Origin: a virus
Virus record (IMG/VR): IMGVR_UViG_3300042542_000694
Coordinates: 1 to 34,861 of that record
Length of the DNA: 34,861 nucleotides
Strand: one strand, 5' to 3'
Shown here one piece after another: positions 8,364 to 24,426 of the stretch. Made by a program: the position numbers and the translations under genes. The notes beneath the pieces were generated by a model, which worked only from the letters and a program-made list of their open reading frames with translations, had not been told where the DNA came from and did no database searches. Numbering within the stretch: the stretch's first letter is position 1; each line of letters begins with the position of its first letter.

Positions 8364-9889
8364 TACGATCCCATCCAAGAAGTTGCAACCACGCCTCTGC
8401 CATTGTACGTGCGGCGCTGCGTGGGTTCACGCGCCTCACGGTGGGCTACTGGGAAGGCAAAAGTGACGCAAATTGCGTCAGCCGCGTCAGGCGAGGCCAA
8501 TCCGCGTGCCTTCATGTCCTTTTTCGACTCCAAAAAGATAGTTCCCTTGGAGTCGGGCTTCATCATAGGCGAAATTAGATCAGTTTTGAGGAATCTGTCA
8601 AGCGGGATTGAAGCAGTTTTTAGCCAATCCTTCATTTTGCCCCACATTTCGGCCCTTTTGTTGCCATACATGACCGGATTTGATGATTTATTGCCAAAGT
8701 TGACACCTTTAATTTTGTAGCGCTGCTCTTTCAAACGGTCAACAATACCAGCCCCCAAGCCGCCTTCGTCGATCACGACCAATGCTGGCTTGTATTCCTC
8801 AATCGCCTCGATCACATGACCAACGACAGTCATGGTGTCGTCGCCTCTGTGGCGCTGAATTGCGATAATGTCGCGCCCTTGACGCACGGCGATGACTGTT
8901 GCATCCGCGCCAAAGCGGGCGGGGTCTACGCCAATCACAATCGGGGCACTGGCGTCCTGATATTTGGGCCGCTTCATCGCCTCGTCCACCAGACTGGCCG
9001 ATATGAACTGATCGTCGCCCTCAGACGGGAACTGACCGTACACCTCGACGTGCGCTTGTGATGAGTCAGCGCCATATTCGTCGATGATCTGCTGATAGAC
9101 CTGCTTGTCCGTCCCTTCGACTGTTCTGGCGTCAACTACTTTTGTAGTCCAGAACTCGCGCTTGCTGTTAAACGCCTCGTAGAAATACCCAGTGTTGCGC
9201 CGTGGGTTAGAGAACGCCATCCAAAAGCGGTTAGGCGTGTTCTCTGTAAAGAAACCAGACGTCACCGCCCAGATGCTGTCATCAATACCAGACGCCTCGT
9301 CGAACACCACCAGCACACCGTCGAAGTTGTGGACACCCGCGTAAGCGTCGGGATTCTCCGCTGACCACAGCCGTCCCTCCACACCCCAGTAGCGTGTGCC
9401 TTTCTTAAGATCACGCTCGACCAGTTCGGTGAGCCACTTAGCTGGCATCAGTCGGGTTGCCGACACTTCAAACCAATGGCTGTTAAGCGCCATCGCCAGC
9501 CACTTGGTAATCTCGGCCCATGTGACTGACCTCAGCTGAGACTCACTGTTGGCCGAGATGATGGTCGTCGAGCCGATGCGCGTTGAGAGCATCCAGATCG
9601 TGATCCATGACACTAACGCCGACTTACCAATACCCCGTCCGCTACTTACCGCATGGCGTAGGGTGTTGAAGTCTAGCTGGCCTTTGTTCTGCGTGATGTG
9701 GTCAGCAATATGCGTCAGCACCTCGCGCTGCCATTTGCGTGGGCCTTTGAAATGCTCCAGTGGTGTGCCAGGCTGACCCCAAGGAAACGCGAACATTACA
9801 AACGCCAAGGGGTTGTCCTTGATCGCTGGCGCCCACAATCTGGCCATCAACTCTTGTTCGTCTTCAGCGCTGTATATGGTCGATTGCAT
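8363..9889 (-). CDS. terL: Terminase large subunit
   Basis: 508 residues; packaging ATPase plus nuclease. ATPase: Walker A SSGRGIGKS at residues 82-90 and Walker B VLVVFDEA at 192-199 (D197, E198), followed by a MAFSNPRR coupling segment. Nuclease (RNase H fold): IVIGVDPARFGADATVIAV with D322, VVIDEGGLGAG with D374, and SPDAADA with D468/D471. It cuts concatemeric DNA and drives it through the portal. Start ATG 9889 lies inside the terS frame (26-nt overlap), and the gene is followed by three tiny basic genes and the portal. Confidence 0.96.
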   Translation of the reverse strand: MQSTIYSAEDEQELMARLWAPAIKDNPLAFVMFAFPWGQPGTPLEHFKGPRKWQREVLTHIADHITQNKGQLDFNTLRHAVSSGRGIGKSALVSWITIWMLSTRIGSTTIISANSESQLRSVTWAEITKWLAMALNSHWFEVSATRLMPAKWLTELVERDLKKGTRYWGVEGRLWSAENPDAYAGVHNFDGVLVVFDEASGIDDSIWAVTSGFFTENTPNRFWMAFSNPRRNTGYFYEAFNSKREFWTTKVVDARTVEGTDKQVYQQIIDEYGADSSQAHVEVYGQFPSEGDDQFISASLVDEAMKRPKYQDASAPIVIGVDPARFGADATVIAVRQGRDIIAIQRHRGDDTMTVVGHVIEAIEEYKPALVVIDEGGLGAGIVDRLKEQRYKIKGVNFGNKSSNPVMYGNKRAEMWGKMKDWLKTASIPLDRFLKTDLISPMMKPDSKGTIFLESKKDMKARGLASPDAADAICVTFAFPVAHREAREPTQRRTYNGRGVVATSWMGS

Positions 9890-10304
9890 GTTGTACCGAT
9901 GGTTCGATTATCTGGGCATCTTCGACTGTCAGCGCTCGCTTGGTTGCCTCAGCCAACGCGCCAGTGATTGATATGCGCTGATCCACTTCGACAGATATGG
10001 CCTGCTTGGCCACCCAGCCGTGTTGATGTTTGAGGATTTCTAACGCTGCCTTAGCGTCGCCGTTGAGCGCGGCTTGGTGCATGACTTTGGACAGTTCGAT
10101 CTCTCCGTCAGCCTTGCCCTTTTGCGCGGCGAGTTCCACCACGGGGTCAAGTTGCGTGAGTTGTCTGTATTCAATAGGCAGCATGCCCGCTGCTAAGGCT
10201 AAGGCATCTCCCTTGAGGCCCAGCTTGGCCGCGTCATATACCGCCTTCAAGCGCGATTCTGTCGCTTCGACCTTGCGCGGTGTAAATGGAATCGAATGGA
10301 ACAT
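9864..10304 (-). CDS. terS: Terminase small subunit
   Basis: 146 residues, ATG 10304 with GGAGA 5 nt upstream. Residues about 10-60 (ESRLKAVYDAAKLGLKGDALALAAG...EYRQL) look like a helix-turn-helix DNA-binding part. The following LAAQKGKADGEIELSKVMH and ALNGDAKAALEILKHQHGW segments are typical of small terminase oligomerisation helices. It recognises the packaging site and activates the large subunit, whose start lies within its 3' end. It is the first gene of the leftward late operon, next to a long non-coding control region. Confidence 0.9.
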   Translation of the reverse strand: MFHSIPFTPRKVEATESRLKAVYDAAKLGLKGDALALAAGMLPIEYRQLTQLDPVVELAAQKGKADGEIELSKVMHQAALNGDAKAALEILKHQHGWVAKQAISVEVDQRISITGALAEATKRALTVEDAQIIEPSVQHAIDHIQR

Positions 10305-10461
10305 GTGTTCTCCATGCTTTTTGCACGTGGTGCGAGTTTACAACAAAAAATAAAAAATTGTTCGTGAACGCTACGTTTTTGCTGGCCCTTTGCGCTCGGC
10401 CCTACCCCCTCCCCCTTGGCCGCATGCAACATACTATTAGGGTTTACCCTGTGTGTCACGT

Positions 10462-10477
10462 GGTCATTGTGGGCACG
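10462..10477 (+). repeat. Direct repeat, GGTCATTGTGGGCACG, copy 1
   Basis: The first of three related copies in the control region. The others are GTCATTGTGGG at 10529-10539 and GGTCATTGAGGCACG at 10801-10815. They have the same orientation and irregular spacing. Confidence 0.6.
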
Positions 10478-10523
10478 CTGTTGCCGTCGCATTGTGTCGC
10501 ACGGTTTGCATGGCCGCATGGTT

Positions 10524-10572
10524 TGTGAGTCATTGTGGGTCATTCCCTTTTCATGACTCACGTTGACCCACA
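10524..10572. repeat. Inverted/direct repeat cluster TGTGAGTCAT / ATGACTCAC
   Basis: TGTGAGTCAT at 10524-10533 is the inverse of ATGACTCAC at 10553-10561. The following ACTCACGTTGACCCACA (10556-10572) recurs as ACTCACATTGACACACA at 10746-10762, 15 of 17 bases identical. ATGACTCACA also recurs at 10652-10661. This may be an iteron-like protein-binding array. Confidence 0.6.
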
Positions 10573-10643
10573 GTCATGACACGCGGAAAAGGCGCGAACT
10601 TTGTGCGCGCGGTTTGTTGTCAGTTTGGTGTCAGTTTGTGGGT

Positions 10644-10664
10644 GGTTGTGCATGACTCACAACC
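10644..10664. repeat. Perfect inverted repeat GGTTGTG-N7-CACAACC
   Basis: Seven-base arms with a 7-nt spacer that itself contains part of a dispersed ATGACTCAC copy. There is no following T-run, so a protein-binding site is more likely than a terminator. Confidence 0.55.
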
Positions 10665-10870
10665 GGTCGCGCTGACTCGAGGCGCGGTAATTCTTACGTT
10701 ACTTAACATAACATAGACATATTTTCATAGATGATCTTTTTAATAACTCACATTGACACACAACAGGCAAAAAACTATATGCCACAAGGCTTTGAGCGTA
10801 GGTCATTGAGGCACGTTTGCGCTACGCACAACTAACGCGCAACCGTACACCAAAATAAGTTAAAACAAAC

Positions 10871-10898
10871 TTGTGTTTTTACCAAAACCTGTTATAAT
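10871..10898 (+). promoter_or_regulatory. Early promoter P1 (sigma70-type)
   Basis: TTGTGT (10871-10876), a 16-nt spacer and a perfect TATAAT (10893-10898), within A+T-rich DNA. The leader is short, and an AAAAGGAG ribosome site (ending near 10923) precedes the ATG at 10932. It is the expected host-polymerase promoter for the rightward early genes. Confidence 0.8.
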
Positions 10899-10931
10899 CA
10901 AATTCCCATTAAGCCAAAAGGAGTTTTTATC

Positions 10932-11228
10932 ATGGCCTCAAAAACCACAATTTTAGAAAATACCCGCGTCGAATACTTCGCGCAACTTCACCGCGTGGTG
11001 CGCGCGCCCGCTTTAAAGCCATACATAACCAAAACGCAGGGCGATGCGATCGCGCACGCCATTGACGAACGCGCTGCTTTTCCCCTGGTTATTTCCTTAG
11101 ATCAGCGAACGCCTAAAGGCACTGTTTATATATACGCCAACGATGCGATCTTGTGCACGATCGACCAACGCGGTGCTTTTAGTTGGCCTTCGCTTGCTGA
11201 TAAAAACCGCGTAAGGGAAAGCACCTAG
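10932..11228 (+). CDS. First early protein, unknown function (98 aa)
   Basis: 98 residues, the first gene behind promoter P1, with a strong AAAAGGAG site. It is basic and soluble; segments include VEYFAQLHRVVRAPALKP, YITKTQGDAIAHAIDERAAF and GTVYIYANDAILCTIDQRG. I recognise no family. It has no membrane segment and no cysteine motif. It has its own promoter and is separated from the rest of the cluster by a second, palindrome-bearing promoter, so it may be expressed first or separately. A host-takeover or regulatory role is plausible from position only. Confidence 0.78.
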   Translation: MASKTTILENTRVEYFAQLHRVVRAPALKPYITKTQGDAIAHAIDERAAFPLVISLDQRTPKGTVYIYANDAILCTIDQRGAFSWPSLADKNRVREST

Positions 11229-11239
11229 TAAAAAAATGC

Positions 11240-11267
11240 TTGACAGTGTAAAAGAATCTTTTACAAT
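11240..11267 (+). promoter_or_regulatory. Early promoter P2 with embedded perfect palindrome
   Basis: Consensus TTGACA (11240-11245), 16-nt spacer, TACAAT (11262-11267). The spacer contains GTAAAAG-AAT-CTTTTAC (11248-11264), a perfect 7+3+7 palindrome reaching into the -10 box. This geometry is typical of an operator where a bound protein blocks polymerase. It drives the ten-gene cluster from 11296. Confidence 0.82.
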
Positions 11268-11295
11268 AGATACACCAACAACGAAAGGGCAACCA

Positions 11296-11391
11296 ATGAA
11301 ACACACGCTTTATGACATCGCCGCCGCCGTAGTTATCGGCTTACTTTTAACCGTAGGCGCATTGGCCTACTTTGACATTCTTTGGAGCTAA
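11296..11391 (+). CDS. 31-aa single-pass membrane peptide
   Basis: 31 residues: MKHTLYDIAAAVVIGLLLTV followed by GALAYFDILWS and TAA. Residues about 7-26 form one hydrophobic transmembrane segment, with a short positively charged N-terminus, so N-in/C-out is likely. An AAAGGG site lies about 8 nt upstream, and the stop is 3 nt before the next ATG. As the first gene after P2 it will be strongly expressed. Small membrane peptides in early phage operons can affect superinfection or host membrane enzymes; no specific role can be assigned. Confidence 0.7.
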   Translation: MKHTLYDIAAAVVIGLLLTVGALAYFDILWS

Positions 11392-11394
11392 ACC

Positions 11395-11727
11395 ATGACC
11401 GATCTTTTTCAAACTTTCCAAGGCGCGGATATTGACCGCCTTGTGTTATGTATTCAAGCCGCCCGTGCTGCCGGTTTGAGTATTGATAAATACACCTCCG
11501 CCGGTGTAAATGACAATTCCGGCAATGTTTGGCTCGCGTCCGAGGATTGGACGGGCTGCGTCTATTGCTCAATCGGGTTTGACGTTGCATGGTGCTATAC
11601 GTGCATGAATTGTGGTGAGGAATACGATTTTGGAAGCTACGCGGCAATGATTGAATTTGAGACGGCTCAATATGAAAAACACGGCAGCGAGTGCGACGCA
11701 TGCACCACAGAGACGGAGGCAGCATGA
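11395..11727 (+). CDS. Cys-rich early protein, probable zinc-binding (110 aa)
   Basis: 110 residues. Cysteines occur as C55-x2-C58, C67-x2-C70-x2-C73 and C100-x2-C103, a layout suited to binding one or two zinc ions. The N-terminal half (residues 1-50) is helical then polar (DKYTSAGVNDNSGNVWLAS). I know of no named family with this exact arrangement. Its stop overlaps the next start (ATGA). It could be a small nucleic-acid or host-protein binder. Confidence 0.8.
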   Translation: MTDLFQTFQGADIDRLVLCIQAARAAGLSIDKYTSAGVNDNSGNVWLASEDWTGCVYCSIGFDVAWCYTCMNCGEEYDFGSYAAMIEFETAQYEKHGSECDACTTETEAA

Positions 11728-11900
11728 AAACTTATCAAGTTGAAATTAGATATATTGCCTTTGCAAATTACACCATTGAGGCCAAAAACGAAGCAGACGC
11801 GGAAGCCCAAGCATGGGCGGAGGTCAATGCAGACCCTGAGCATGCGTCTAGTTACGGTGAATGGGAATTAATGAGCATTGAAAAAGAGGTGACGGCATGA
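11724..11900 (+). CDS. Small early protein (58 aa), MKTYQVEIRYIA type
   Basis: 58 residues from the ATG at 11724, coupled to the previous stop by ATGA; an upstream in-frame ATG at 11691 is inside the previous gene and less likely. It reads MKTYQVEIRYIAFANYTIEA then KNEADAEAQAWAEVNADPEH. The strand-strand-helix pattern with alternating 'V/I-A-NEADAEAQAW' is common to small phage proteins of unknown function. It is acidic and has no cysteine. Confidence 0.78.
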   Translation: MKTYQVEIRYIAFANYTIEAKNEADAEAQAWAEVNADPEHASSYGEWELMSIEKEVTA

Positions 11901-12079
11901 AAGACCCTTGGCACGATAAATATTTTGGCAAGAGTGCCCCTGAGTTCTATTACGAACCCAAAACAGACGCCCAGCGCGCCGCCTACGTTAAAAAATGGGA
12001 GAACTACACGCCCAAAACCGGCGACGAATGGTGCTTAAAACAAAACTACGAACTTTGGAAAAGGAAGCAAACAAAATGA
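11897..12079 (+). CDS. Small early protein (60 aa), unknown
   Basis: 60 residues, ATGA overlap on both sides. It begins MKDPWHDKYFGKSAPEFYYE and is rich in Lys, Trp and Tyr (KKWENYTPKTGDEWCLKQNY). It has no recognised domain. The perfect coupling and lack of alternative coding support it as real. Confidence 0.72.
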   Translation: MKDPWHDKYFGKSAPEFYYEPKTDAQRAAYVKKWENYTPKTGDEWCLKQNYELWKRKQTK

Positions 12080-12282
12080 CCTACGAAGTACAAACCCTCT
12101 GTTATCCCGATATATGGGAGAACACATGGTCAAACTCATTGGGCGACACGCCCGTACAGTTTGACACCTACGAAGCCGCAGCCGAAGAATTAGCGGAGTA
12201 TTTGCGCGAGTTAGCCTACGCCGTCAAACAAGGCTTTGCAACCGATTTTGACAATTCAGCTTATAGGATTAAAAAAGTATGA
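12076..12282 (+). CDS. Small acidic early protein (68 aa)
   Basis: 68 residues from the ATG at 12076 (ATGA overlap); an earlier in-frame ATG at 11995 lies inside the previous gene. It contains MTYEVQTLCYPDIWENTWSN, then QFDTYEAAAEELAEYLRELA, a clear acidic amphipathic helix. Such small acidic proteins in early phage operons sometimes mimic DNA or bind host enzymes, but nothing here proves it. Confidence 0.74.
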   Translation: MTYEVQTLCYPDIWENTWSNSLGDTPVQFDTYEAAAEELAEYLRELAYAVKQGFATDFDNSAYRIKKV

Positions 12283-12494
12283 CTCATTATGACCGTACAA
12301 AAATAACCTTTCACCGTGGCAATGCTTTTACACCTGAGGGCATCGACGCGGAACCTTTCGCCACTTTTACGATTGACGATCTAGTCAACCACGAATTGAT
12401 TGAGGCTATTTGCGCCCTAGTTCGCGCCCACGTCAACGACGCGCACAAAGATTTTTGCAACATCAAACTATCAACCGAAGATTGGGACTCATAA
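12279..12494 (+). CDS. Small early protein (71 aa), unknown
   Basis: 71 residues, starting in ATGA with the previous gene. Segments: MTHYDRTKITFHRGNAFTPE, FATFTIDDLVNHELIEAICA and DFCNIKLSTEDWDS. It looks soluble and mixed alpha/beta. I recognise no family. It is followed 1 nt later by the next gene. Confidence 0.72.
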   Translation: MTHYDRTKITFHRGNAFTPEGIDAEPFATFTIDDLVNHELIEAICALVRAHVNDAHKDFCNIKLSTEDWDS

Positions 12495-12495
12495 A

Positions 12496-12906
12496 ATGAT
12501 TACTTTTGAACACCACGGCATAACCGTAAAATGCAAGCCTGAGCGCGCCATTGAATACCGGCGTTTGATGGACAAGCCGCCAAAGGCCAAAGCCGTTAGC
12601 GAAAAGCGCGACTATCCAAAGTGGAATCCTACAATGACCACGGGCGACTATTTGCGCGCCTATATCCGCTTGAATGACCGCCGCCGGATGATTGAGTGCT
12701 CTCACGCATGCGCCAACTATGACCAAACGCCCGCCATGTATGACGGCAGCTTGCCGGAAGTGTTAGAGGAATTAGACCCCGACTGGGTGCCCACGGCTAA
12801 GGCGCGCAAGATCACGCCCAAACAAGCCATTGTGCAAGCCTTGGACGCCCTCAAGCTGGGCGACATCGACACGGCTCAATGTATCTTGACGGAGGCGCTC
12901 AAATGA
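12496..12906 (+). CDS. Early protein of unknown function (136 aa)
   Basis: 136 residues. The N-terminus (MITFEHHGITVKCKPERAIE) looks like a short beta unit, the middle has YPKWNPTMTTGDYLRAYIRL, and the C-terminal 35 residues (KITPKQAIVQALDALKLGDI then AQCILTEALK) form a helix pair like one repeat of a helical scaffold. There are no catalytic signatures. The stop overlaps the next ATG. Confidence 0.75.
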   Translation: MITFEHHGITVKCKPERAIEYRRLMDKPPKAKAVSEKRDYPKWNPTMTTGDYLRAYIRLNDRRRMIECSHACANYDQTPAMYDGSLPEVLEELDPDWVPTAKARKITPKQAIVQALDALKLGDIDTAQCILTEALK

Positions 12907-13364
12907 TTAGAGACATGTTAACACTAGCGCTTCAAGAGTTGGAATTAGAGGAGGCGCAAACCCACTACCCTTCGCAGGCGCTTATTAACGGCATCGCTGC
13001 CCTTAAAGCCGCATTAGAAGAATCGTCAGTATTAGACCCCGCGCAAATAATTTTGGCGGAACGTGAGGCCATTTACGACATTGTGATGGCCGCGCCCTTT
13101 AATGAAAATGTGGACACCGAGCCAAACTATGAAGAATTGCTGTTTGCTATGAAAGCGATGGCTTTTTCAATCACTGCGGCAATTCGCAAAAGGGGTGTTT
13201 TAGAGTACCCAACTTACACGCCAGGCGTGGGGTGGCGATACGTTTCGCCACCGAAACGCACTTGGGTAGGGTTGACGGCAGACGAATACGCGGAATTAGC
13301 CGAAGAATATGGGCCGTTTCCAATCAATCAAATTGAAGCCAAACTCAAGGAGAAAAACACATGA
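12903..13364 (+). CDS. Early protein (153 aa) with C-terminal WVGLT motif
   Basis: 153 residues from the ATG at 12903 (ATGA overlap); an upstream in-frame ATG at 12879 is inside the previous gene. The N-terminal 45 residues form a helical domain (MIRDMLTLALQELELEEAQT). Residues 117-152 contain PKRTWVGLTADEYAELAEEY and end IEAKLKEKN. A short 'W-V-x-L-T-D/E' block of this kind occurs in many small phage proteins and is repeated in this window at 22014-22238. The function is unknown. Confidence 0.78.
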   Translation: MIRDMLTLALQELELEEAQTHYPSQALINGIAALKAALEESSVLDPAQIILAEREAIYDIVMAAPFNENVDTEPNYEELLFAMKAMAFSITAAIRKRGVLEYPTYTPGVGWRYVSPPKRTWVGLTADEYAELAEEYGPFPINQIEAKLKEKNT

Positions 13365-13552
13365 ACCAAACCATAGCCGAGGCGTTGGCACCTTTTCGCC
13401 CGCTGACATATACAGAACATTATTACATCGACCTTGGGTATAGATACGAACTAGGCAAGGCCAATCAGCACGAATACAAGGTGGCCATGGCCGAAGGGCC
13501 GGAGGCGCGTCGATTGCTTAACCGTGGCGCGATGGAGGCAATGACTAGATGA
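13361..13552 (+). CDS. Small early protein (63 aa)
   Basis: 63 residues, ATGA-coupled to the previous gene. Sequence blocks: MNQTIAEALAPFRPLTYTEH, YYIDLGYRYELGKANQHEYK, AMAEGPEARRLLNRG. It looks helical and polar and has no recognised domain. Confidence 0.7.
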   Translation: MNQTIAEALAPFRPLTYTEHYYIDLGYRYELGKANQHEYKVAMAEGPEARRLLNRGAMEAMTR

Positions 13553-13608
13553 TCTTACTCATTGCCGCTATACTGGCGGCGCTACTGTCAATTCTCCTTG
13601 ATCTGTAG
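13549..13608 (+). CDS. Possible 19-aa hydrophobic peptide
   Basis: ATG 13549 overlaps the previous stop (TGA 13550-13552). It encodes MILLIAAILAALLSILLDL, then TAG at 13606. It is one hydrophobic helix and nothing else. Coupling and position right before the terminator are suggestive, but so short a frame may be chance. Confidence 0.4.
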   Translation: MILLIAAILAALLSILLDL

Positions 13609-13625
13609 CAGTTGCCACACCTCAC

Positions 13626-13653
13626 AGGCCCCTTCACAGGGGCCTTTTTTTTT
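13626..13653 (+). terminator. Rho-independent terminator of early operon
   Basis: AGGCCCC (13626-13632), loop TTCACA, GGGGCCT (13639-13645), then an unbroken T-run to 13653. The seven-base G/C-rich stem and T-run face rightward. It ends the early transcript just before the convergent primase gene; the leftward strand lacks a U-tail. Confidence 0.95.
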
Positions 13654-15955
13654 ACTTCACCAACTTCATCAAAGGTGACTTGCCGTCAGGCTCGCAGGCG
13701 TCTCGCAGTTCTGACTTGCCTCTGTTGACCATATCAGGGGCGCAGAAAACGTGCTTTTTAGTCGTATGCGCCCGCGACTTGAGCAGGCCCATATCCACCC
13801 AGCCCGCCTCACGGAACGCATGCAACAAAGCCGCCACGGGTAACTTCATACCCGCAGGGGCCACGCCAGTGAGACGGTCGCACGTTGACTGCCACGGGCC
13901 GCCCAGCACGCCAGACGCAAACTCACCTAAGCGGTTACGCATCATCTCAACAAGGAACGACTCAGCGCCACTCATACCCGTTTCAACCATGATGGCCTTG
14001 GCCTCAGTCATGGGAGGGATAGCGCCGGCGTTAAATGCAGACACGTCACGGGTGGCAAGCCACGCCGTCACGGCCGCAAACCCGCCTGACTTGTACCATG
14101 CCCACAAACGCGCAGACGCGTCAGCATCCATGCAAAGCGCGTCAGACCACAATACAAACCAACGGCGGTCATTCGACGGGATAGTGATCGCCATGCGCTC
14201 ATTCGAGAACGCCACCACTTGCAAACGGTTGACCGCCTCATAGGGTGCTAGACCCTTGCGCTGAATAGACAAAAACTCAGGCGGGGCGGCGATCACGGGC
14301 TTCAAACTGTTCTCAAGGGCGCGGCGGTCAGACGCCTCTGGCTGGCGCAACTCGTTAATAATGAGCACCTCACATTCGAGGTGATAGCCCCACGGCGTTG
14401 ACAAGTCTTTATTGTCCAGCTTTTTGACGTTGGCAAGTGAATCACCGCCGACCGCCCAAAAGAACGGGGCCCACATCGTATCCTTGCCTGAGCCTGGGTG
14501 CCCGCCATGCAGAACGGCGTGATTGACTTTGATGTTGGGGTTTTGCACTTTGAAGGCCATCACGTTCAAAACATGCTCACGCTCAATGCTGTCAGGAATC
14601 ATGCGCTCAACGTGGTCAAGCCACGGCGTAGGGTCAACACCCGCAGCCACGGGCGGGCGGGCATCGCGCCATCGGTTGCCGTACACCAGACCCTCACGGG
14701 CACAAAGAATTGTCTCGCCGGGGGCGTAGGTTACGCCCACCAGTGTTTTTGCGCCCTTGGCCTGACGGTTCTCATCAAAGCAAACAGACGCCTCGATCTT
14801 GCGCTGATTGTGAATTGACTTGCATGAGATGTGACGAAACAGGGCGTTAAAAGTACCGCGCCCAATCTCGCGGCGGTCGTTCATGTCAAAGTAGGCATCA
14901 TCGTCTTGAATGTAGGCAAAGCGCTCCCACCAGCCCTCCTTTTCAATGCGGCCTAGTTCCTTGCGCTCGACCTCGGCAACGATAGCCGCGCCAGCATCGG
15001 GGAACGCCTCAGTCGGGTTCAGTTTAGAAAGCGCCTGATCCATAGCCATCGTCAGCAGTTCCTCACGCAGACCTGGGGCATGCTTAGGGCCGCCATTGTC
15101 AGCCACCCATTGCAAGAATGCATTAGAGTCAAAGTCAATACAGTGGCTATGCAGGCAGCGATAAGCGCGGTTTGCAGGCATGTAACGGCCTTCAGGGTTG
15201 CCGTCTGTGTGCTCTGCATTGTTAGGGCAGATCACGCCAGCCCAGCCTTCATTGTTGGGTTTAGACAACAACACGCCATGGCCAGACAGCCACGCCATCA
15301 CATCGTCTGCGCCATCATCTGACAAACGGATTGGACGCACGCCGATAGAGTCAGCGGGGGCAGGGGTTACATTAAACGCCGTGCAAATTTCCTCAAGCGT
15401 AAATTCACGCTTAGGCTCAAACTCGACCAGCTTCGCAGCAAAGTTGTTGCGACCAGGCTTTAGGTTGATTGAGCCGGGCAGGCGGAAGTTACGCACGGCG
15501 TTGACCGCGCCCTTGTCGGTGTAGCCCGCCTCAGCAATCGACTTGATAGCGGCGGCAAAATCGGCCTTTGTGGGTTGCTCTGAGAAAGCATAGCCCCACT
15601 GAAACGAGCCGGGCGATGTTTCGATCTTCCAAGTAGGTTCTAACGGCGGTATGTTGGGGGCTTTGTCAGGGTCGCCCACGTCATCCAGCACCATCACAAG
15701 CACATACTCACAATGCGCTACGCTGGCGCTTGGATAGCCGTCTTTGAAGCGGTCAACGATAAACGACGCTGTGTTGCCGTAGATCGCCCAATCTTTTTTA
15801 ATCTTGGCGTCAGGCAACATGGCAGGCCAAGTGCATTTGATCGCGCCGTCAGGAAAAAATTGCATCTCACCGTCTTTGAGCATGGGCTTTTGACGCACGA
15901 TCAGCGCAGTCTCACCCTTTGGGGCTAAAGAAATTAAAAATTCAAGAAAGTTCAT
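13652..15955 (-). CDS. Primase-helicase (AEP/RepB-type primase + SF3-like DUF5906 helicase)
   Basis: 767 residues. N-terminal primase: LVMVLDDVGDP (D91, D92) and RNFRLPGSINLK (155-166) match archaeo-eukaryotic-type (RepB-like) primase motifs. A zinc knuckle follows: C243, H249, C267 and C272. Helicase: Walker A GGHPGSGKD at 484-492 and a Walker B-like VLIINE at 530-535, in the style of NrS-1-like/DUF5906 SF3 helicases. It would unwind phage DNA and prime synthesis for the adjacent family A polymerase. Start ATG 15955 overlaps the HNH gene stop (ATGA). It is the last gene of the leftward replication operon. Confidence 0.88.
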   Translation of the reverse strand: MNFLEFLISLAPKGETALIVRQKPMLKDGEMQFFPDGAIKCTWPAMLPDAKIKKDWAIYGNTASFIVDRFKDGYPSASVAHCEYVLVMVLDDVGDPDKAPNIPPLEPTWKIETSPGSFQWGYAFSEQPTKADFAAAIKSIAEAGYTDKGAVNAVRNFRLPGSINLKPGRNNFAAKLVEFEPKREFTLEEICTAFNVTPAPADSIGVRPIRLSDDGADDVMAWLSGHGVLLSKPNNEGWAGVICPNNAEHTDGNPEGRYMPANRAYRCLHSHCIDFDSNAFLQWVADNGGPKHAPGLREELLTMAMDQALSKLNPTEAFPDAGAAIVAEVERKELGRIEKEGWWERFAYIQDDDAYFDMNDRREIGRGTFNALFRHISCKSIHNQRKIEASVCFDENRQAKGAKTLVGVTYAPGETILCAREGLVYGNRWRDARPPVAAGVDPTPWLDHVERMIPDSIEREHVLNVMAFKVQNPNIKVNHAVLHGGHPGSGKDTMWAPFFWAVGGDSLANVKKLDNKDLSTPWGYHLECEVLIINELRQPEASDRRALENSLKPVIAAPPEFLSIQRKGLAPYEAVNRLQVVAFSNERMAITIPSNDRRWFVLWSDALCMDADASARLWAWYKSGGFAAVTAWLATRDVSAFNAGAIPPMTEAKAIMVETGMSGAESFLVEMMRNRLGEFASGVLGGPWQSTCDRLTGVAPAGMKLPVAALLHAFREAGWVDMGLLKSRAHTTKKHVFCAPDMVNRGKSELRDACEPDGKSPLMKLVK

Positions 15956-16428
15956 ATTGTTGCCGCAGGGTTATGAGTATGATATTTTGCCGCTGCAACT
16001 TTGTACGCCGCAATAGCATCTTCGATATTGACAAAACGACCTAAATGTTTGCATTTAGAAGCGTGATAAATAGACGCCGCCCATTTACCGCGTGATTTAT
16101 CCCACGAAACACCTTTGTGCCCCGAAGAATTGTTTTTACTTAACACTCTATTTTGTTGATTTTGACTGGCGCTGACTAACCTAAGATTGGCCAATCGGTT
16201 GTCATGCCGAACGCGGTTTATGTGATCGACCGCGCCTTCGGGCCATTCGCCGTAACAATATAGAAAAACTATTCTATGCGCTGCATACCGCACTCCATCT
16301 AACCAAAGATGAACATAACCTTTACTGGTTACAGTGCCCGCGTCTTTTCGCACGCGGTTGGTTAAATGCGTAAACGCCCCAGTGTAGGGGCAATAATGCA
16401 ACAGCTCTTTAAGCCGTTTTTGATTCAT
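15952..16428 (-). CDS. HNH homing endonuclease with AP2 DNA-binding domain
   Basis: 158 residues from the ATG at 16428, which has GGAG 8 nt upstream; the frame extends 40 codons further to 16548 but that part does not resemble the family. HNH core: AHRIVFLYCYGEWPEGAVDH (H51, D68, H69), N71, then DNRLANLRLVS (N77, N81). AP2 domain at about 101-150: SGHKGVSWDKSRGKWAASIY with later LGRFVNIEDAIAAYK. Free-standing homing endonucleases of this type cut alleles lacking the gene. It is inserted between polymerase and primase, and its stop overlaps the primase start. Codon use looks more A+T-rich than its neighbours, consistent with a mobile gene. Confidence 0.92.
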   Translation of the reverse strand: MNQKRLKELLHYCPYTGAFTHLTNRVRKDAGTVTSKGYVHLWLDGVRYAAHRIVFLYCYGEWPEGAVDHINRVRHDNRLANLRLVSASQNQQNRVLSKNNSSGHKGVSWDKSRGKWAASIYHASKCKHLGRFVNIEDAIAAYKVAAAKYHTHNPAATI

Positions 16429-16537
16429 GTTTTTAACTCCGCCAAGCTCCCAGAAAAGTGACCGACAGCAGGCGGGGAGTACGCTTTTCAGCACGGGGAT
16501 CAATCCGCGCCTAGCTGGGTCTGTGTAAATCATACCA

Positions 16538-18454
16538 CTACTTACCATAACGCGTCATTGTTTGCGCTTCAATGTTCAGAGGTAACCCCGCCGCCCATTC
16601 TGGGGGCGTTGTCATTATTTCCTGCATAAGGCGCTCAACTTTTTCAGGCGCGTCTGTTTCTATGACAACTTCATCGTGAACATGTAAAACGGTTTGCAAA
16701 CCCGCATGTTCAAACGCGCGCAACGAATGACGAAGCAAATCATTGGCCACTGCTTGCGTCACGTTTTCGCAAGCCAAGCCTTTCCAAAGGCGGGCGCGTG
16801 GCCATTCTTTTGCATCTTGCGCGGGCTTCCATGCCGCCTTGGCATAACTGACGCCCTCCGATTCCAGTTTGGCATAGGGGTAGCACAAGATGCGGCCAGA
16901 CGGTAGGGCATACCATAGGTGTTGACCGTCAAACAAATATGTGATACGGCCAGCCTTAAACTCACGCCCCTTGTTTCTCATTGCACGGGTATAGGATTCC
17001 TCAAGCGCCGCCCAATAAGGTACGCTCCAAGGATTAGCACGCCGCCAGCCATCAACCATGCGTTTGGCAACTGGCTCAGGAAGACTGATCCCATAAGCCC
17101 GACCCATAGCAGCAAAAGCGCCCACGCCGCCAGCAAATCCGCAGGCAAGCTCTTGTACCTTTCCAATCTGTCGCTGATCTTTGGTAACGTCTGCCACGCG
17201 AACATTGAATGTTGCAGCGGCATTGACTTTATAGACGTCTTCCCCAGTTCGGAATAGTTCCAGTTTATCGGCGCCTCGCCCTGAGAGCCACGGGTTGACA
17301 CGAGCTTCGATGGCCGCCCAGTCTGCCACGACAAAGTGTTTGCCTGTTGCAGGGATGAGCGCTGGTCTAAGCATTCCTTTAAGTACATCGGTAACGCGCT
17401 TTCCATACCGAGGCACGATTGAGTGTCCCCTAACCATAGCGTTGCGTACGGCGTCGGGTTCTTCAGCGCACTTGCGTGTAAAGTTGTGGACTTGGGCGCC
17501 ATACGAACTTGATCGACCAGTTGCTGAGCCTCCCGCAAATACGAACGCTCCGCGTACCCTCTGATCCTCCTCGTCCGCCAGACCGCTAAGTCGGCTGAAC
17601 TTTGCCACAGACGACGCCCAGAGGTCGTCGGCGCATTGGATAACTTCTTGGACATCGGCAGGGACTTCATCGGGGTTCTCCATGTTTAATAAATTAAGTC
17701 TTACAGTCTTGTCAATGGAGTACTTGCCATCCTTCTCCATCAACTTCTTGGCTTCATCACCCACGCGCTCAAGCACCCACTCACGCATGCGTGGCGACCT
17801 GACGCTGGTGATTGCGCCGCCCGTGACTTCCTTGACGATCTGTTCGATCTCAATGAGTTCATCGGAGGCAAATTTAACTGCCGCTTGGCACAGCGGCACA
17901 TCGACCAACACGCCGCGATCATTGATGCGCTCGTTGACGTGATAGTCTTCTAGCTCAGTCTCTGACAAGTCGCGCATGGCCTTGCTGATTGCACGCATGG
18001 CACGCACGTCCTGCTCACAGTACTGGATCATCTCGGCCATGAGTTCAGGTGAGTCTTTGAATGGCGGCACGCACATCAAGCGAATTAATTGCGCGCCCCT
18101 GTGATCTTTTTTCATAGACGCGCCAGCAAAGCGGCCAACGTCCTCCAGACTGCCAGGCGCGCAGTTGGCGCGGGCTTGTGTGGCCGTGCAGTAAAACTGC
18201 TCCAACTTGAAGTTAATCTGCAACACATACCAAAAGATCAAGCGCTCGAACGCAGCGTTATGCGCCCTGATCTGGCCGGTGTAGTTGCGAACGCGCTCAG
18301 GGAATGGCTCGGACGGCACCCACGTCACCACTTCCTCATCGTCAAACGCATACGACATGCACAGCACATCGGTGCTTGCATCCTGCGCGTAGTTGTATAC
18401 GCCCTTGGCGCGTAGGTCGCATGTACTGCGAGTCTCGAAATCTAACCAAAGCAT
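16538..18454 (-). CDS. DNA polymerase, family A
   Basis: 638 residues from the ATG at 18454, preceded by AAAGGAG; a longer frame to 18484 is not needed. 3'-5' exonuclease: LDFETRS (D5, E7), HNAAFE (65-70) and D149 in YCEQDV. Polymerase: motif A ADWAAIEAR (377-385), motif B RQIGKVQELACGFAGG (428-443) and motif C HVHDEV (591-596). No 5'-3' exonuclease domain is present. It resembles phage polymerases of the kind paired with AEP primase-helicases. Neighbours are the ssDNA-binding candidate upstream and the HNH gene downstream. Confidence 0.95.
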   Translation of the reverse strand: MLWLDFETRSTCDLRAKGVYNYAQDASTDVLCMSYAFDDEEVVTWVPSEPFPERVRNYTGQIRAHNAAFERLIFWYVLQINFKLEQFYCTATQARANCAPGSLEDVGRFAGASMKKDHRGAQLIRLMCVPPFKDSPELMAEMIQYCEQDVRAMRAISKAMRDLSETELEDYHVNERINDRGVLVDVPLCQAAVKFASDELIEIEQIVKEVTGGAITSVRSPRMREWVLERVGDEAKKLMEKDGKYSIDKTVRLNLLNMENPDEVPADVQEVIQCADDLWASSVAKFSRLSGLADEEDQRVRGAFVFAGGSATGRSSSYGAQVHNFTRKCAEEPDAVRNAMVRGHSIVPRYGKRVTDVLKGMLRPALIPATGKHFVVADWAAIEARVNPWLSGRGADKLELFRTGEDVYKVNAAATFNVRVADVTKDQRQIGKVQELACGFAGGVGAFAAMGRAYGISLPEPVAKRMVDGWRRANPWSVPYWAALEESYTRAMRNKGREFKAGRITYLFDGQHLWYALPSGRILCYPYAKLESEGVSYAKAAWKPAQDAKEWPRARLWKGLACENVTQAVANDLLRHSLRAFEHAGLQTVLHVHDEVVIETDAPEKVERLMQEIMTTPPEWAAGLPLNIEAQTMTRYGK

Positions 18455-23806: not shown

Positions 23807-23964
23807 CTAACAGACCAGACTTTTCTACATGGAGCCAGGCTAACTTGGCCAAGTTTGCCGAAGAAGCCTACGCCAAGTTGTGTGAGCAAGACGACCGCAT
23901 ACAGCAGTTGCAATGCGATTTAAAGACCGCTATTGAGGCGTATCGCGCTTTAACTAAGGAATAG
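23803..23964 (+). CDS. Small coiled-coil protein (53 aa)
   Basis: 53 residues from ATG 23803 (ATGA with previous stop). It reads MTNRPDFSTWSQANLAKFAE then EAYAKLCEQDDRIQQLQCDL and ends AYRALTKE: one long amphipathic helix. It is the last gene of the rightward block and overlaps the end of the convergent lysozyme gene by 15 nt. Confidence 0.75.
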   Translation: MTNRPDFSTWSQANLAKFAEEAYAKLCEQDDRIQQLQCDLKTAIEAYRALTKE

Positions 23965-24426
23965 TGCCCGTTCGTCAATCCGACGCGTCTGAAGGCCTCT
24001 TAAGACCTTGCCGCCAGCCATGCAATACTTCAGCAGTTCCTCGGCAGCGCCCTCCATGTCACCACGCAGCACCTTTTGCCGCATGGTTGACCTCTGGAGT
24101 GTGCCAAGCCCTACATTGAAAGAAAATGAAACCAGCGCATCAAACTGTCCTTGAGTAAGAGGCACAGGACAATAAGTAGCCACGCCTTTCTCAAACCGAG
24201 CAAGATCGGCCCTAAGTATTGCATCGACTTCCTCCATTGAGTGCTTACGCATGGCCTCTGGCGGGGGCACAAAGGCGTCGCGCTGATCTATCTTGAGCTT
24301 GCCCTGCTCTGGGAACATGACGTGCCCCACGCCCACAGTCCACAGCTTTGCAGGGCATTTGTAGGGATTCTGCCTCACGCCCTCGTGATGGCGAATCATG
24401 TGCAGGCACTTGGCTGATATTTTCAT
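23950..24426 (-). CDS. Endolysin, GH24 phage lysozyme (158 aa)
   Basis: 158 residues. Catalytic layout E15-x8-C24-x5-T30 within HHEGVRQNPYKCPAKLWTVG matches T4/P21-type lysozymes (E-8-D/C-5-T). Later blocks LTQGQFDALVSFSFNVGLG and the Arg-rich C-terminus (LRGLQTRRIDERALF) fit the family. No signal-arrest segment is evident at the N-terminus, so release would depend on the adjacent holin. It cleaves peptidoglycan at the end of infection. Start overlaps the holin stop (ATGA). Confidence 0.94.
   Translation of the reverse strand: MKISAKCLHMIRHHEGVRQNPYKCPAKLWTVGVGHVMFPEQGKLKIDQRDAFVPPPEAMRKHSMEEVDAILRADLARFEKGVATYCPVPLTQGQFDALVSFSFNVGLGTLQRSTMRQKVLRGDMEGAAEELLKYCMAGGKVLRGLQTRRIDERALFLS

Follow-up and report, generated by a model that had tools for sequence, protein, structure and literature searches.

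A row of small genes between one promoter and one terminator

The viral contig IMGVR_UViG_3300042542_000694, analysed here over its full 34,861 bases (the window), carries genes for portal, head closure, DNA ejection, scaffold, terminase, DNA polymerase, primase and helicase; the nearest annotated record labels the portal P22-like and the virus a podovirus. Eleven consecutive small reading frames on the + strand (g1 to g11; Table 1) lie between 10932 and 13608, and our subject is the operon that most of them appear to form. A first-pass annotation, made by a model from the letters of the window, had described an early operon of eleven proteins, mostly linked by ATGA and served by strong promoters. 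The frames exist as it described them, including the 31-residue membrane peptide (g2), the Cys-rich protein (g3) and the 19-residue hydrophobic frame (g11) that it singled out. Seven of the ten junctions are ATGA overlaps (g3/g4, g4/g5, g5/g6, g6/g7, g8/g9, g9/g10 and g10/g11); the others are gaps of 3 (g2/g3), 1 (g7/g8) and 67 nucleotides (g1/g2). Among the relatives described below, 238 of 401 junctions were at -4, an upper estimate since our gene-calling script rewards ATGA overlaps.

Of the strong promoters, one conserved site stood. Our promoter scan of the window returned 5 promoter-like sites against 4.7 expected by chance, so a promoter excess was rejected as a count, and it is conservation that backs the site at 11240. 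Of 50 sequences (window included), 27 had the exact TTGACA-16-TACAAT arrangement ahead of g2; the opposite strand had 0 copies at that place, and the rest of these sequences, 515,954 bases read on both strands, also had 0. A slightly looser form occurred in 31 of 53 sequences scanned. The first frame after the exact site belonged to one of six cassette families in 24 of the 27 sequences, was unclustered in 2, and was g2 in 1, the window itself (tabulated as g3 owing to the start picked by the script). A palindrome in the promoter spacer had perfect 9-bp arms in 10 of 31 promoter copies and arms of 6 bp or less in the other 21. At the far end of the row, a terminator hairpin with a T-run lay within 90 nucleotides after g11 in all 45 testable relatives.

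Because the promoter sits between g1 and g2, g1 falls outside the conserved operon, and the operon proper is better read as the ten genes g2 to g11, from this promoter to the terminator, than as a unit of eleven. A mechanical open reading frame (ORF) beginning at 11236 would make g2 a 51-residue protein; we rejected it since the beginning of such a frame is overlapped by the conserved promoter, and since 27-31 residues is the length found in the rest of the family.

Table 1. Positions in the window of the eleven frames and of the signals around them.
Feature	Position	Strand	Description
g1	10932-11228	+	ORF, 98 residues; upstream of the operon promoter
g2	11296-11391	+	31 residues, one hydrophobic span; predicted single-span membrane peptide; core
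g3	11395-11727	+	110 residues, Cys-rich, two CxxC pairs
g4	11724-11900	+	58 residues, acidic; exchangeable
g5	11897-12079	+	60 residues; exchangeable
g6	12076-12282	+	68 residues, acidic; exchangeable
g7	12279-12494	+	71 residues, acidic; near-core
g8	12496-12906	+	136 residues; in the model, structured ends with a low-confidence middle between them
g9	12903-13364	+	153 residues, acidic; chimera, between g8 and g10
g9 C-terminal module	13254-13361	+	108 nucleotides, common to unrelated proteins; contains AAGGAG
g10	13361-13552	+	63 residues; core
g11	13549-13608	+	19-residue predicted membrane peptide; core, last gene
Operon promoter, TTGACA-N16-TACAAT	11240-11267	+	promoter scan and conservation
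Palindrome in promoter spacer, 19 bp	11247-11265	.	possible operator
Extended -10-like TGTTATAAT	10890-10898	+	found by eye, absent from the scan output; possible g1 promoter
Intrinsic terminator	13626-13653	+	terminator scan; strong

Gene content turns over in a nearly fixed order

To compare the operon across phages, we used g8 as a query and obtained 51 viral contigs, in which g8 is present by construction. Their terminase and primase, where present, were 86-100% and 59-98% identical to those of the window, and their operon genes were patchy. The + strand frames of each locus were called by our own script and then clustered into families. Near-duplicates were kept (among them L013/L014, L022/L023/L048, L019/L021, L028/L029/L050, L003/L005/L006, L009/L047 and L041/L043). 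Gene content was tabulated for the 48 sequences with a called g11, window included; L004, L010, L049 and L050 fall outside this set, L010 having g11 by tblastn and the other three being contig ends.

These 48 sequences held 38 distinct gene contents. Apart from g8 (48, by construction), the families of the window were present in numbers ranging from nearly all to a single sequence: g10 in 47, g2 in 46, g7 in 39, g6 in 31, g4 in 28, g3 in 19, g5 in 6, g9 in 4 and g1 in 1. Fifty-two further families occurred in at least three loci, some of them probably non-coding upstream frames. Order was nearly invariant: after removal of 15 families whose short upstream frames are probably non-coding, and of families in fewer than three loci, 461 pairs of families co-occurred in at least two sequences, of which 456 kept a constant order and 5 changed, 4 of these owing to one family, a8. 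In three loci picked for length and found via g8 (hence g8 present by construction), 13 of 16 flanking genes were in all three, versus 6 of the 11 genes of the row. The ratio of nonsynonymous to synonymous polymorphism (pN/pS) within families g2 to g11 ranged from 0.02 to 0.49 (the values for g5 and g9 derive from 4 and 3 distinct sequences), with 0.43 for g2, 0.49 for g4, 0.26 for g7 and 0.20 for g10; eight accessory families gave 0.06 to 0.47. By these ratios the frames from g2 to g11 are more than chance. The comparisons show the operon as a stock of one-gene cassettes, exchangeable and held in nearly fixed order between steadier flanks.

Many exchanges break at gene boundaries

Breakpoints, taken as the ends of blastn matches between the window and seven relatives, often fell exactly at the edges of genes. 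Matches ended at the g8 stop codon (12906) in six of the seven relatives and started at the g6 ATG (12076 or 12075) in five, at the g4 ATG (11724) in two and at the g5 ATG (11897) in one; in three they started at the g10 ATG or no more than 3 bases from it (13358-13361). Relative to locus L002, the block from g5 to g8 was 96% identical, and it looks recently exchanged because identity was 89% on the terminase side (9001-9889) and 80% on the primase side (13361-14989). Locus L071 shared terminase (99%), primase (97%) and g3 (100%) with the window, but its g8 was only 59% identical and it had no match to g5 or g9.

The g8/g9/g10 region illustrates the precision of these junctions. The gene directly after g8 is g10 in 40 of 50 sequences; in the window g9 lies between the two, with ATGA at either junction, and an identical junction sequence 3' of g8 precedes g9, g10 or a8 in different phages. 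Reading frames and overlaps were preserved through the exchanges at these junctions. The last 36 residues of g9 turn up again in other viral contigs (L059-L064, L066 and L068), joined there to different N-terminal parts; their 108 nucleotides differ at 9-13 places, mostly third positions, among the eight contigs compared. An AAGGAG within this module is placed to serve the next gene, a position that suggests a ribosome-binding role. From this pattern of recurrence we conclude that g9 is a chimera and its module a portable 3' end.

The ends of the operon are nearly constant

Clustering found g2 in 49 of the 51 relatives, and tblastn or clustering found g11 in 48; the other three contigs stop before g11. 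A separate search with g10, of which the best 80 of 120 relatives were taken, gave 34 loci (near-duplicates included) that were new in the sense of having no exact 400-base match to the 51 contigs. There g11 adjoined g10 in 34 of 34 cases, 31 of them without a g8 match. All 48 clustered members of g11 encode 19-20 residues. Over all loci, 57 distinct DNA versions of g11 encode 31 peptides with a pN/pS of 0.29 (bootstrap interval 0.19-0.41), in a search that itself demanded 19 residues, hydrophobicity and a [DG]L end. That ratio, and the retention of g11 in every examined related contig that reaches it, led us to reject a chance frame; on the pattern of substitution, g11 is a real protein. Only A, G or S occurs at positions 6, 10 and 11, and A, S or V at position 14, as if the small residues at 6, 10 and 14 lay on one face of a helix. 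By their distribution, g2, g10 and g11 behave as core genes, not as accessory ones.

Individual members and their predicted functions

The ten proteins long enough to scan (g11 is under the 20-residue limit) were compared with PHROGs, Pfam and NCBIfam. The best PHROGs match was of g4 to a family of unknown function (E value 0.003), and Pfam and NCBIfam returned only weak matches below curated cut-offs. The description of the members as lacking recognised functions held for these ten, which gave no convincing match to a family of known function, and a check for housekeeping roles in most members, run with these three libraries, left the first-pass reading standing.

Five members are acidic (g3, g4, g6, g7 and g9), with net charges, by charge count alone, of -14 in 110 residues for g3, -8 in 58 for g4 and -11 in 153 for g9. 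An isoelectric point below 5 was computed for 16 of 37 cassette families versus 4 of 22 other phage proteins. Among the cassettes of the relatives, family a7, present in 13 of the 51, is named a DNA methyltransferase: its representative matches phrog_757 with an E value of 6e-49, and its pN/pS is 0.06. The name rests on that PHROGs family, as the representative had no PDB sequence match up to an E value of 0.1 and no Pfam match. Such a cassette is plausible as an anti-restriction gene.

For g1, no match was found in any of the 51 g8 loci; the one other carrier found was L071, at 99%. The g3 protein is widespread among phages: its relatives were confirmed in viral contigs in 123 cases, of which the best 80 were fetched. 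Among 68 g3 loci examined, the terminase was related to that of the window in 31 and not in 37, the latter partly a consequence of the short stretch fetched.

Two proteins, g3 and g8, were modelled with AlphaFold2. The g8 model was poor (predicted template modelling score, pTM, 0.24) and unusable for a fold search. The g3 model was confident (predicted local distance difference test 88.8, pTM 0.78) and found no convincing solved counterpart: compared with PDB structures it gave no match under an E value of 0.001, and two unnamed predicted viral proteins matched it at probability 1.00 (E values 8e-4 and 5e-3). The best Z from VIA-align was 4.6, and T4 MotA matched through its C-terminal domain at Z 4.3 (78 residues, root-mean-square deviation 4.1); we did not use these matches because, according to the tool, this range of Z may mean only a common arrangement. 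Depositors labelled the g3 relatives in MW202496 and MW202711 as the antitoxin MqsA, a label with which the Cys pairs of g3 agree in suggesting zinc. However, a profile of 17 g3 sequences listed 7 PDB sequences up to an E value of 1, all FYVE-type, HIT1 or consensus zinc-finger chains (best E value 0.0025), and no chain named MqsA was among these 7 or among the structure-search rows shown.

Tiny membrane peptides also occur ahead of g3 elsewhere. One ends within 130 nucleotides upstream of g3 for 23 of 48 distinct g3 proteins (32 of 68 loci), whereas among control starts taken from the same loci the figure is 14 of 215; since these loci are themselves relatives of each other, the counts serve only as a lead. 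These peptides (in loci L155-L222) are single-span, different and partly unrelated, and they come from several viral contigs. They and g3 may work together.

Comparison with known systems

Series of uncharacterised small genes that are believed to act on the host as infection begins are known from T7-like early regions and SPO1-like host-takeover modules. The operon resembles them in this respect, but the proteins of the window have no sequence match to them. Mosaic gene boundaries are likewise familiar from lambdoid phages, in which linkers place exchange breakpoints at the boundaries of genes. The operon differs in that many of its boundaries are the 4-nucleotide overlap of coupled genes, and in keeping one order across dozens of cassette families. 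Very short hydrophobic peptides occur in bacteria as Ibs type I toxins, single-span and of about 19 residues, and as regulatory membrane micropeptides. With 19 residues, almost wholly hydrophobic, and a single span, g11 is like Ibs; unlike Ibs, it closes an operon of proteins, coupled to the gene before it. Ibs-like toxins have a cis-antisense RNA as antitoxin; the window contained no known RNA family at the Rfam gathering score, a scan that is blind to novel antisense RNA.

The closest parallel is with early anti-defence regulons of archaeal viruses. The account cited set out from genes with established transcription immediately after infection, took a conserved early promoter ahead of unrelated accessory genes as the mark by which to predict anti-defence genes, and validated an inhibitor of CRISPR and an inhibitor of toxin-antitoxin (PMC11065993). 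As far as that account describes them, those regulons and the operon share a conserved promoter ahead of diverse, mostly unrelated and poorly conserved small accessory genes. Here the exact promoter precedes such genes in 27 of the 50 sequences, and close relatives differ in content, with the exception of g2, g10 and g11. The operon differs from the regulons, again as that account presents them, in being a single ordered polycistronic unit with a terminator, in a bacterial podovirus, with near-constant first and last genes, and in being known from sequence alone.

What the operon may do

We consider it on balance probable that this is an accessory operon of a short-tailed freshwater phage, in which exchanged cassettes are likely to serve anti-host or anti-defence purposes and the constant ends a core function. 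Genes g2 to g11 would be one transcription unit, running from a sigma-70-type promoter, presumably active early, to the terminator, between the terminase and replication genes. Within it, gene-sized cassettes, many bounded by ATGA stop/start overlaps, would be swapped among related phages, and the 3' end of one gene would supply the ribosome-binding site of the next, so that exchange would keep translation coupled. Gene order would be kept because exchange probably runs by homology in the neighbouring genes. The exchangeable members would most likely act soon after infection on varying host defences or host functions, and g2 together with g10 and g11 may provide a function on which infection of any host depends, probably at the inner membrane.

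The host-takeover or anti-defence role that the first-pass annotation had read into the locus is plausible on these grounds. Its anatomy fits: there are a promoter, a terminator, turnover, small proteins of unknown function and, in some relatives, the methyltransferase cassette. On the other side, no gene of the window belongs to a known anti-defence family, and three of the ten genes are core-like.

Several observations weigh against our interpretation. The ten window proteins scanned matched no known anti-defence or host-takeover family in PHROGs, Pfam or NCBIfam. PADLOC, applied to 66 cassette representatives, gave one weak match (E value 0.0067). Pfam gave three matches to these 66, among them Phage_TreK (E value 2e-21) and DUF7249 (E value 1.7e-7), and PHROGs matched 22 families, just three of which are named for a function: the methyltransferase and, both weak, an HNH endonuclease and 'prohead'. 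Phage_TreK is, in the account cited, a terminal-repeat-encoded protein of staphylococcal phages (PMC5618024); 20 of the 66 representatives, scanned singly in Pfam, gave no such match. The exact promoter site is missing from 23 of the 50 sequences. Breaks occur inside genes too, at 11868 (g4), 11585 (g3), 12303 (g7) and 13373-13379 (g10), and turnover extends outside the operon, where two tail-region genes and an HNH gene come and go. Several near-duplicate contigs inflate our counts. The near-constancy of g2, g10 and g11 means that part of the operon may be ordinary phage biology.

In the best-surviving alternative, the operon serves mainly the replication or regulation of the phage itself, through small regulators of polymerase, packaging or gene expression, and its alternative forms are matched to alternative replication or packaging proteins. 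The position between terminase and primase and the constant g2, g10 and g11 would suit such a role, as would the genes labelled helix-turn-helix (HTH) or repressor in the same block of two more distant relatives (see below). We nevertheless regard it as unlikely, since L071, with terminase and primase nearly identical to those of the window, differs in content, lacking matches to g5 and g9 and having a divergent g8.

Less probable still is that the locus recombines neutrally, as a hotspot next to the genes for packaging and replication, with small genes coming and going to little benefit and the ends marking only promoter and terminator. High turnover between steadier flanks would look alike under such a process, but the families of the operon and the eight accessory families are under purifying selection by their pN/pS, all but 5 of the 461 pairs keep their order, and frames and overlaps survive the swaps at the g8/g9/g10 junctions. 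A lysis cassette with g2 and g11 as holin-like peptides, an idea that draws on both being short, single-span and hydrophobic, is very improbable: no lytic enzyme was recognised beside these peptides among the ten operon-region proteins scanned in the three libraries, and a phage lysozyme (PF00959, E value 2.8e-36) lies at 23950-24426 on the other strand, which places at least one lysis gene well away from the operon.

A bolder version of the accessory-operon interpretation can be put forward tentatively, and we think it doubtful as a whole. The ATGA junctions would themselves be selected, making genes, and even C-terminal modules that carry the ribosome-binding site of the next gene (g9 being the example), swappable in fixed order, so as to form a plug-in operon framed by an obligate membrane set, g2 towards its front and g10 and g11 at its end.

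The virus and its neighbouring genes

By identity of the terminase protein, the nearest records are MW202483 (78.5%) and phage DSL-LC05 (69.2%), both environmental genomes. A new family has been proposed for DSL-LC05, which shared genes link to the cultured Rhodoferax phage P26218, among others (PMC10611076). The terminase-primase interval of both records holds a + strand block of small genes, mostly unknown; in one of the two it includes a cytosine methyltransferase and a gene with a DnaA-type HTH label, and in the other a putative endonuclease and a gene with a repressor label. When g8, g9, g3, g1 and g10 were searched by tblastn in a phage collection, g3 alone matched, in 2 records. As to the host, a genome bin of Muproteobacteria gave a single weak match, with 45% identity across about 31 residues.

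Upstream of the row, about 620 bases (10305-10931) contain no convincing gene and, by eye, several GTGAGTCAT/ATGACTCAC-like words in both orientations; a repeat finder reported no direct repeats in 10300-10940 and one imperfect 20-nucleotide inverted repeat (75%). This stretch may be a control or replication region. Downstream, an HNH endonuclease gene at 15952-16548, between the primase and polymerase genes, is absent from three long relatives and looks like the insertion of a mobile endonuclease. The frame at 23177-23806 matches a PHROGs family labelled 'ferredoxin' (moron, auxiliary metabolic gene and host takeover) with an E value of 7e-74.

Significance

The operon offers a bounded, promoter-marked set of dozens of small phage gene families, sorted by position, to which new contigs can add candidates for anti-defence or host takeover. 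Its natural, precise gene exchanges lend themselves to testing swaps that spare translation, and g11 is a tractable core gene. If the plug-in arrangement were true, g11 would count as one of the smallest core proteins that a phage family has, and as a membrane effector of a new kind.

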